Assembly: GCF_009900715.1 (NCBI RefSeq)
Contig: NZ_JAAAJC010000001.1
Span: 547,216 to 611,215 of the forward strand
DNA length: 64,000 bases
Source of the DNA: Halococcus salsus
GTDB taxonomy: Archaea; Halobacteriota; Halobacteria; Halobacteriales; Halococcaceae
Direction of reading: 5' to 3'
The notes under the pieces are model-generated. The model had not been told where the DNA came from. It saw nothing but the letters and a program-made list of their open reading frames with translations, and made no database searches. Positions 24,650 to 28,026 of this stretch are shown here, one piece after another. Positions within the stretch are counted from its first letter, which is position 1; each line of letters begins with the position of its first letter. Both the position numbers and the translations under genes were made by a program.

Positions 24650-24655
24650 CATCCT

Positions 24656-24676
24656 CCCCGCCGTGAAACGGCGGGG
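24656..24676. repeat. Right-end hairpin of the tnpB element
   Basis: Perfect 8-bp stem CCCCGCCG with loop TGAAA. Sub-terminal hairpins like this mark the ends of IS200/IS605 elements and, at the right end, form part of the TnpB guide-RNA scaffold. Confidence 0.65.
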
Positions 24677-24697
24677 TTTCCCTTCCGAGGTGGGAAA

Positions 24698-25957
24698 TTA
24701 TAGCTCGCAGTCCATCTGTTCACGCGGGAGAAAATCTCCTCGCGCTTTGTCGAACAGTCGGACTGCTGGCTGTGCCATCCAGCCGTTATCCCTATCCTCT
24801 CGCCGAGGATTCGGGAGTACCCTTTGTCGAATGTTCTCCGCGCCGTTCGTATCAGCGTTGGCGACCAGTCCACAGTCGTCACAGACGTACAGGCCGCGTT
24901 CGACGCGCTGGCTGTCCGCTTTCGTCCCACACACCGAGCAGGTCTTCGACGTGTCCCGTTCGGAGACGGTTTCGACCTCGATTCCTTCGGCTTCGGCTTT
25001 GTAGTCGAGCAACGTCGTGAAGCGGTCGAACGCCCACCCGTGGAGGTCCATGTTGCCGTGGTCGCCCCAATTCCGTGGGCCGTTCTCGTCCTCGCGGATA
25101 CCGCCGAGGTCGCCCACGACGATTGTACCGACCTCGCATTCGACGCACTCCTGTACGATGTGCTTCGACAGCGCGTGCAAGAAGTGCGTGCGCCGGTCGG
25201 TGCGCTTCCGGTCGAGACGCTGTGCCTCACGAGAGAACGAATCGTTGCACTTCGCGCGCTCTTTGGCGAAGTAGTATTCGTCCTCTTTGAGTACGCCGCC
25301 GGGGTACAACACGGACTCGTCACCGAACGAGACGGCGGCGACGTTGCAGATGCCGAGGTCCACACCCGCCGTTCCGTCACCGGCCGATGTGATCTCGATT
25401 TCGTGCTGGCAGACGATGTGCAAGCGCCACTCGCCGTGTTCGAAGACGGCGCGCACCTGCTGGACGTTCTCGATTTCAACGTCCGGGTCGGCGTCGTAGG
25501 CACACAGGATGAAATCGGACCAGTGGGCCTTCGTGTTCCGGCCCTTCGACAGTCGGATGTAGCCGTTTCGAGCGTCGTGCTTGAAGCCGTCTTCCTTGAA
25601 CGTGACCGTCGAGCGCGGGTGTTCGTCGCCGTTCTTGCGGTAGCCAGGCGGGTTCGCGTTCTCGTCCCCAGAGTCTCGGTGGCCGTACCATCCACGAAAC
25701 GCCTCATCGAGTTCTTCGAGAACTCGCTGACTGGACTGTGCGTTGAGGTCCGCGTAGCGTTCGTGGCTCTTGAGATACGACTTGAGTACCGAGTGGTCGG
25801 GAATCTGGCCGCAAGCGTCCCAAACGCGCCCCGCTGTCCACCGGGCGACGTTCCAGAGTTTCGCGGCGGCGAAACCAAGCGTATCAAGCCCGTCTCGCAC
25901 CTGCCGCTGGTTCCGTATGGAAGCGCGGTGGGTGCGAACAACGGTCTCAATCGCCAT
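24698..25957 (-). CDS. tnpB: TnpB family RNA-guided nuclease
   Basis: A 419-residue TnpB (OrfB). RuvC-I Asp is in GVDLGICN (about residue 200), the zinc ribbon is CSVCGT...CDDCG (about 340-360) and RuvC-III Asp is in ADTNGAENI. At RuvC-II the family usually has VEDL-like sequence with a catalytic Glu; here it is VVGDLGGIRED, so Glu is missing at that spot and may be supplied a few residues on (GIRED). TnpB proteins use a right-end RNA to cut DNA matching the flank, helping the element persist. The ATG at 25957 has a TATA box (about 25979-25988) 25 nt upstream. Full length, no frameshift. Confidence 0.92.
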   Translation of the reverse strand: MAIETVVRTHRASIRNQRQVRDGLDTLGFAAAKLWNVARWTAGRVWDACGQIPDHSVLKSYLKSHERYADLNAQSSQRVLEELDEAFRGWYGHRDSGDENANPPGYRKNGDEHPRSTVTFKEDGFKHDARNGYIRLSKGRNTKAHWSDFILCAYDADPDVEIENVQQVRAVFEHGEWRLHIVCQHEIEITSAGDGTAGVDLGICNVAAVSFGDESVLYPGGVLKEDEYYFAKERAKCNDSFSREAQRLDRKRTDRRTHFLHALSKHIVQECVECEVGTIVVGDLGGIREDENGPRNWGDHGNMDLHGWAFDRFTTLLDYKAEAEGIEVETVSERDTSKTCSVCGTKADSQRVERGLYVCDDCGLVANADTNGAENIRQRVLPNPRREDRDNGWMAQPAVRLFDKARGDFLPREQMDCEL

Positions 25958-26157
25958 GCATAGCCTATTGTGCTACGCCGATATAATTACATGGTGTCCA
26001 TAGTGAAAGTGAATGCGGAATATCCAGTAGAGCCGTTGGCGGGTGGCCGGTGGTTGCGACCATCCACGGCAAAGCTTACGCGATTCACGCCCGCCCCCCG
26101 GCCTACGGCCTCGGCACGGGATTCTCTCGCTGAATTATGATAGCAAAGGGATTTGAG

Positions 26158-26461
26158 GTGGCGGCGGCAAGGACCCCTGCACGCCGTTGTCCCCGCCCGA
26201 GCACGTCCACACGGGCACGATGACGCGCGGCGAACCCCGGCGTGCGATACTGGTTGCGCGTAGCGCAACCCACTGCGAGGCCGGCACGCGCCGGCCGAGG
26301 TTGGTCACCGACGACCCGCCCGGCATAGGGTTTTCCGGCCGAGACGGCACACCGCCCGCGATGAGGCCGGTGGTTAGTGTTCCGGGCGACACTCCACTTT
26401 CAGTAGCGAACGGCTCGTCGCTCCTCGAACGCGGGAGCCCACGACGTGCTCTCCGCCGCAC
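26158..26461 (+). ncRNA. Candidate structured RNA of about 304 nt, family unassigned
   Basis: The gap 25958-26565 has no acidic open frame but strong potential base pairing. The ends pair (26158-26167 with 26453-26461). Inside are: 26179-26186 with 26238-26245 (8 bp) enclosing 26195-26199 with 26212-26216; 26252-26270 (8-bp stem, loop GTA); 26279-26296 (7-bp stem, loop ACGC); 26376-26393 (5 bp); 26420-26438 (5 bp). A TATA-like GAATTATGA (26132-26140) lies about 25 nt before the 5' end on the plus strand, favouring that strand. I looked for the SRP helix-8 sequence (GGAA loop with AGCAG) and the RNase P GAAAGTC and GGCTTA blocks and did not see them. It precedes the exonuclease gene. Confidence 0.45.
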
Positions 26462-26565
26462 GTCCGTCGTCGTGTGGGTCACCGTTCCTCCCAGCAGCAG
26501 GCGGACCCCATGAGCCACGCTCAAGTCGTTCCCGCCCGAAGACGGAACGAGTCCACACCCCTGCC

Positions 26566-28026
26566 ATGCCCCACGCTCATTCGACGGCGAAACTGCTCGT
26601 CATCCCCTCCGTGGTCGCGCTCCAGCTCTCGCCACCGGAGTTCGAGGACGCGCTCTCGTACTTCGAACCGGACGCCCTCCTCGTTCTCGGTCCCCAAGAA
26701 CACGCCTACACGACGGCTGCCTTCGACCACCTCACCGACGAGTCCGTCCCCGTCGTGTTCGACCCGCTCGACGCCACTCTCCCCGACGACTATCGACCGT
26801 GCACGCTGCACGGCGTCGACGTGGTCTTCGCGAACACCACCGCCGACATCGAATCCCTCCACGAGGGCGAGACGGACGGTTCGCTCGACGTCGACACGGA
26901 GACCTACGTCGTGAGCGGGCTCCTCGGTCTCGACGTCGATACCGACGCGCTCTCGACCACCCTCACCGGTCGCGCCGACTACCGGAGAGCGCTCTCGCCG
27001 AGCGATCGTGACGGGTCGTACACGCATCTCGCCACGAAGATCGAGGCCGGCTACGCCTACACCTGGGACGACCTCCGGGTCCGTGGCATCGGCCTCCCGG
27101 ACGGGGCTGGGTTGCCGCCGCTGACCTGTTTCACCCTCGATACGGAGGGGCACACGACCGCGGAATCCCTTGATCCCGGCAAGCTGGGACTTCGCGCGGT
27201 CCACGGTGTCGGGCCGACGACCGAGGACCGGCTCCGGACGGCGGGGCTCGCCACCACCGACGATATCGCCGCCGCGACCGTCGAGGAGTTGACCGAGATC
27301 CGGGGCATCGGCGCGAAGACGGGCGAGCAGATCCGCTCGAACGCGCGGGCGTTCTCGGAGGGTCGGGTCATCCGAACCAGCGAGACGCCGCTTCCGGGTC
27401 GGGACCCCGTCTTCGTCGATATCGAGACGGACGGGCTCAACCCCACGATCGCGTGGTTGATCGGGGTTCAGGACGGCATCGACGGCGACTACGTCTCGTT
27501 CGTCCAGCCCGACCCGGACGACCCGGGGAAGGCAGCTCGGGAGTTCATGAGCTGGTACACGGCGACCGCAACCGGTCGAACGCTCATCGCGTGGAACGGC
27601 TGGAACTTCGACTTTCCCGTCCTCCGAGAGCAGATCACCGCCCACTGTCCGGAGTATCTCGACGCCTGGAAACGCGCCTCGAAACGCGACCCGCTCCGGT
27701 GGGCCCGCGACCACGACAACGCCGTGCTCCCCGGTCGGACGAACAAACTCGAACACGTCGCAGGCGCGCTCGGCTGGGAGCACGACGACACGGGTCTCTC
27801 GGGGGCCGCAGTCGGGCGCGCCTATCGCCGCTGGATAGAGACCCGCAGTCCGGACGACGAACTCGACTGGGAACGCCACGAGCGCTACTGCGAGGATGAC
27901 GTTCGCTCGCTCGCGTTCATCTACGAGGCGATGCGCGAGGCGAACCGGCTCGCGGCGACGAACGACGACCGATCCCGGTCAGTCGGCGAGACCACCGAGC
28001 AGGGGACCCTCGGGGACGTCTACTGA
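26566..28026 (+). CDS. MrfB/YprB-like exonuclease with helix-hairpin-helix segment
   Basis: A 486-residue protein. The C-terminal half is a DnaQ-like RNase H-fold exonuclease: PVFVDIETDGLNPTIAWLIG (Asp/Glu of motif I), LIAWNGWNFDFPVL (motif II Asp) and YCEDDVRSLAFIYEAM (motif III Asp). Ahead of it is a helix-hairpin-helix pair with AVHGVGPTTEDRL and IRGIGAKTGEQI (about residues 205-265), a DNA-binding unit. The domain type matches YprB, renamed MrfB in Bacillus subtilis, which acts with helicase MrfA in mitomycin C repair. An MrfA-like helicase follows at 28603. The ATG at 26566 is the best start; the upstream frame is basic and unlike a protein. Confidence 0.8.
   Translation: MPHAHSTAKLLVIPSVVALQLSPPEFEDALSYFEPDALLVLGPQEHAYTTAAFDHLTDESVPVVFDPLDATLPDDYRPCTLHGVDVVFANTTADIESLHEGETDGSLDVDTETYVVSGLLGLDVDTDALSTTLTGRADYRRALSPSDRDGSYTHLATKIEAGYAYTWDDLRVRGIGLPDGAGLPPLTCFTLDTEGHTTAESLDPGKLGLRAVHGVGPTTEDRLRTAGLATTDDIAAATVEELTEIRGIGAKTGEQIRSNARAFSEGRVIRTSETPLPGRDPVFVDIETDGLNPTIAWLIGVQDGIDGDYVSFVQPDPDDPGKAAREFMSWYTATATGRTLIAWNGWNFDFPVLREQITAHCPEYLDAWKRASKRDPLRWARDHDNAVLPGRTNKLEHVAGALGWEHDDTGLSGAAVGRAYRRWIETRSPDDELDWERHERYCEDDVRSLAFIYEAMREANRLAATNDDRSRSVGETTEQGTLGDVY

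Follow-up and report, generated by a model that had tools for sequence, protein, structure and literature searches.

The window, the 64,000-nucleotide stretch of the Halococcus salsus genome analysed here, carries on its plus strand, from 26179 to about 26394, what is almost certainly a haloarchaeal two-hairpin box H/ACA guide RNA gene, as judged by sequence comparison (Table 1). The gene is recognized by its conservation, by covariation in its stems, by the invariance of its pockets, by complementarity of these pockets to 23S rRNA and by the presence of genes for Cbf5, L7Ae and Nop10 (Gar1 weakly), and a DNA search found it as a single copy in the genome. Its two hairpins, HP1 and HP2, share one predicted layout: above the lower stem come a guide pocket and then an upper stem, in which GAUGA forms one side of a K-turn, and an ANA box stands at the 3′ end. 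Folds and covariation place an internal pocket between two stems in both hairpins, the sequence GA...GAUGA is kept in both upper stems, and an ANA box follows directly 3′ of each lower stem, as AUA in HP1 and ACA in HP2, and nearly all relatives have ANA there. Counting from the TATA-like box by the general TATA-to-start spacing rule puts the probable start of the RNA near 26179; its 3′ end would lie a few bases beyond the HP2 ACA box, at about 26394.

Table 1 Features of the guide RNA locus, in window coordinates
Feature	Position	Strand	Basis and remarks
Guide RNA promoter (predicted): BRE-like CAAAGG and degenerate TATA-like ATTTGA	26144–26156	+	Upstream alignment of 97 loci
HP1, first H/ACA hairpin	26179–26249	+	Lower-stem covariation and target scoring; Pf7/Pab40 stem II homologue per Grosjean 2008; predicted guide for 23S U2616 (Hmar 2621)
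HP1 5′ guide strand GUC	26189–26191	+	Would pair with GAC 3′ of target U-N; near-invariant in 29 distinct pocket types
HP1 GAUGA, K-turn side, predicted L7Ae binding	26219–26223	+	Kept in nearly all HP1 sequences
HP1 3′ guide strand AACCC	26233–26237	+	Would pair with GGGUU 5′ of target U; near-invariant
HP1 ANA box	26247–26249	+	AUA here, ACA in most relatives
Spacer between guide hairpins	26250–26317	+	Hairpin array, one ~50-nt module; 1–199 nt in 95 loci
Spacer hairpin A, 8-bp stem and triloop	26252–26270	+	Sole genome site of GGYYGCGCNNNGCGCRRCC; other loci have related hairpins
Spacer hairpin B, 7-bp stem and GA/GA flanks	26279–26296	+	Spacer comparison across loci
HP2, second H/ACA hairpin	26318–26391	+	Sub-threshold HgcG match, compensatory changes in both stems, targets; Pf7/Pab40 stem III homologue; predicted guide for 23S U1952, alternative register U1950
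HP2 5′ guide strand AGGGUU	26327–26332	+	Invariant in 97 loci
HP2 GAUGA, K-turn side	26360–26364	+	Kept in most HP2 sequences; aligned to HgcG
HP2 3′ guide strand GUUAGUGU	26373–26380	+	Invariant in 97 loci
HP2 ACA box	26389–26391	+	ANA kept in nearly all

Conservation and covariation of the two hairpins

A DNA search with a 501-bp query (26100–26600) matched 50 of 60 relatives and 25 of 30 genera, a few of the 50 matching rows covering only the first ~45 bases, which are the end of a mobile element, or another short stretch. Within the query, two blocks are conserved, HP1 and HP2, and a degenerate pattern for the HP2 block picked up another 68 loci, in named genomes of haloarchaea such as Natrinema, Haladaptatus, Halorubrum and Halobaculum. 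Extraction yielded 97 loci for HP1 and 97 for HP2; in 95 loci the two share a strand and are 1–199 nt apart. At one locus (L010), close to the end of a contig, HP1 is on one strand and HP2 on the other, which may reflect an assembly fold-back.

The covariation check in relatives that the first-pass annotation had called for revealed compensatory changes in the stems of HP1 and of HP2, with at least 95 haloarchaeal loci carrying both. In the HP1 lower stem 93% of cells were paired, compared with a mean of 80% and a maximum of 84% after shuffling, and 28 two-sided changes were seen; the test compared 28 distinct strand pairs with a null in which the 3′ letters were dealt anew, and allowing either of two gap lengths for each sequence tilts the result somewhat towards pairing. 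The HP2 lower stem is nearly invariant, yet shows two compensatory types; in its upper stem, four changes are two-sided and the paired fraction equals that of the highest shuffle. Support for the predicted HP2 structure comes mainly from its alignment to HgcG and from these compensatory types.

The first-pass annotation had proposed a structured RNA over 26158–26461. These 304 nt are indeed rich in hairpins and in GC and encode a structured RNA, which is conserved, but the fold of this interval as a whole was no better than those of dinucleotide shuffles (z = −1.35 on the plus strand, with 11 of 100 shuffles as good; z = −0.32 on the minus strand). The signal lies in the comparative data. The same fold result, the concentration of conservation in HP1 and HP2 and the fit of the H/ACA features and targets largely refute the idea of a novel RNA structure that has no relation to H/ACA guides, spans 26158–26461 and is closed by a terminal helix; although the ends of the interval are able to pair and both arms are readable in the nearest relative (L003), we give this reading next to no chance. 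The supposed helix (26158–26167 with 26452–26461) lies outside the conserved core, and its 5′ arm is missing upstream of HP1 in the other members of the genus that were read, save L003, which has both arms; the conserved gene extends over about 26179–26394 instead. If the inserted element described below gives a new promoter, the bases of 26158–26167 and 26452–26461 could be transcribed.

Guide pockets and their predicted targets in 23S rRNA

We scored all 521 U of the organism's own 23S rRNA against the pockets, taking the mean over distinct pocket types; the pockets of HP1 and HP2 hardly vary among loci. Counterparts of known pseudouridine sites came out best for both hairpins. For HP1 the top target was U2616 (context GGGUU[U]AGAC, target in brackets), with a mean score of 8.48 compared with 6.81 for the next. 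For HP2 it was U1952 (GUAACUA[U]GACCCU; 9.50 compared with 8.75), its lead over U2230 being narrow, and by reading the sequence HP2 can be seen to accommodate U1950 too, in a second register. The spacings 2616–1952 (664) and 2616–1950 (666) are within one base of those between the published sites, 2621–1958 and 2621–1956. U2616 for HP1 and U1952 for HP2, with U1950 as an alternative, are the best-supported targets, and by sequence context and spacing they correspond to the published sites 2621 and 1958/1956. A single-sequence search that used the window's pockets with permissive offsets was unspecific, leaving the known sites in third place (HP2) and fourth place (HP1) rather than at the top, and was replaced by the scoring over all pocket types.

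In the mechanism that we propose, HP1 would hold GGGUU[U]AGAC of 23S rRNA and present U2616 for conversion to pseudouridine, and HP2 would hold GUAACUAUGACCCU in two alternative registers, presenting U1952 or U1950. Each hairpin would bind L7Ae at its K-turn and Cbf5–Nop10–Gar1 at its pocket and ANA box. In the genome, the matches to Cbf5, L7Ae and Nop10 exceed the cutoff and the one to Gar1 falls short of it; we infer protein binding and catalysis in Halococcus salsus from sequence.

Relation to known RNAs

Halobacteria, including Haloferax volcanii, have two conserved hairpins with a long spacer that are homologous to stems II and III of Pf7, and HP1 has been predicted to guide 23S Ψ2621 and HP2 to guide Ψ1956 and Ψ1958 via alternative structures (Grosjean et al. 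2008, PMC2584109). A later paper counts the H. volcanii H/ACA guides as fully (experimentally) validated, citing Blaby et al. 2011 (Toffano-Nioche 2015, PMC4652768). By published layout and targets, the present locus is like the HP1/HP2 of H. volcanii and other halobacteria (PMC2584109; Hvo1/Hvo2 in PMC4652768), with two hairpins, a long spacer, the same 23S sites and alternative registers for two adjacent target uridines. It is set apart by description, in that a TnpB element abuts the gene here and a hairpin module of varying copy number makes up the spacer. The RNA gene is genuine and of a known kind. Among the three options that the first-pass annotation had left, a new haloarchaeal RNA lacks support, H/ACA RNAs that have two hairpins, a long spacer and these targets having been known in halobacteria since 2008; the option of a known RNA in divergent form is right, and the spacer also fits the suggested hairpin-rich repeat cluster.

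The comparison with Rfam that had also been advised gave nothing at gathering score for 26158–26461. A match to HgcG/Pab40 (RF00064) covers HP2 (26316–26387, model 198–268; 17.1 bits, E = 0.019 in an 801-base search), short of the family's gathering cutoff of 77 bits, and the locus was absent from the matches of a whole-genome HgcG search. Like HgcG/Pab40/Pf7 of Thermococcales, to whose third hairpin it aligns, HP2 contains CGAUGAGG and a GUUAG pocket; unlike them, the locus is without a recognized stem I counterpart, has a spacer between its hairpins and scores below the family cutoff. Its kind is missing from Rfam, which is why the RNA looked like an unknown structure here. The 97 aligned haloarchaeal sequences could seed the absent family, so that annotation would stop overlooking the gene.

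Core blocks of SRP RNA and RNase P RNA had rightly gone unmatched: these genes sit at other genome sites (contig C1, 216279–216592, and contig C2, 424872–425309, respectively), and neither covariance model matched at the locus. Weak Rfam matches to che1, CRISPR-DR28, sRNA-Xcc1 and RsmW, two of which are on the opposite strand, were rejected: they fall on GC-rich hairpins and their E-values are at chance level.

Promoter and neighbouring genes

Upstream of HP1, the alignment of 97 loci, numbered from the HP1 anchor, shows an AT-rich TATA position (−38 to −34) and a second AT peak (−20). Where relatives carry TTTA/TTAA (TTAAAC), Halococcus salsus has the degenerate ATTTGA. The TATA-like box first placed about 25 nt upstream of the RNA turned out to be the end of an inserted IS605-type element, TTATGATAG at ~26135–26143; the conserved BRE/TATA follows ~13 nt further on (~26144–26156).

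This TnpB-only IS605-type element (24650–26143) separates the guide RNA promoter from the stop codon of an FAD oxidoreductase gene. The tnpB product has OrfB_IS605 and Cas12f1-like_TNB domains, and a match to the sot0042 RNA (24655–24822, minus strand) is found at the tnpB 3′ end. In the nearest relative the element, there lacking tnpB, still separates the guide RNA from the FAD oxidoreductase gene.

The insertion beside the promoter might have lowered transcription and left a decaying gene copy whose sequence is now drifting. The end of the element does abut the promoter, ATTTGA is weaker than the TTTA/TTAAAC of relatives, and HP1 has one apical-stem mismatch as well as AUA in place of ACA, but AUA is also seen in relatives without the insertion. 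Moreover, the guide pockets and K-turn sides are intact, as are the stems; the nearest relative shares the insertion, and its HP1 and HP2 are 98.7–100% identical; and the copy is the only one found in the genome. We consider decay very improbable and retain the reading of a guide RNA gene of the known kind.

About half of the loci have a homologue of the FAD oxidoreductase upstream of the RNA, often as its immediate neighbour. The exonuclease gene beside which the RNA had been placed adjoins it in only two loci, many loci being too short to show it; the adjacency is incidental, a neighbour without conservation.

A variable hairpin array in the spacer

Spacers of at least 60 nt folded better than their dinucleotide shuffles (mean z = −3.5; z < −2 in 37 of 42). 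The count of spacer triloops demands perfect pairing, so its pair table is no covariation test. Within the genus, the ~50-nt two-hairpin module occurs once in the window and in one other locus (L004), twice in most loci and three times in L003 (tandem period 50). We know of no earlier description of this spacer hairpin array, and its variation from one to three copies within the genus is somewhat new; the alignment of the guide RNA also records it. We regard it as speculative and rather unlikely that the spacer has a function as an expandable array of hairpins, which might for instance act as a scaffold or bind protein, and so hold the two modification complexes at a distance or allow both to work on the same rRNA. 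Hairpin A was also considered as a dispersed repeat and rejected, its pattern occurring once in the genome. Module copy number was compared in the window, L003, L006 and L008, and 2 × 2 internal loops of GA/GA or UC/UC recur in the spacers of several genera.
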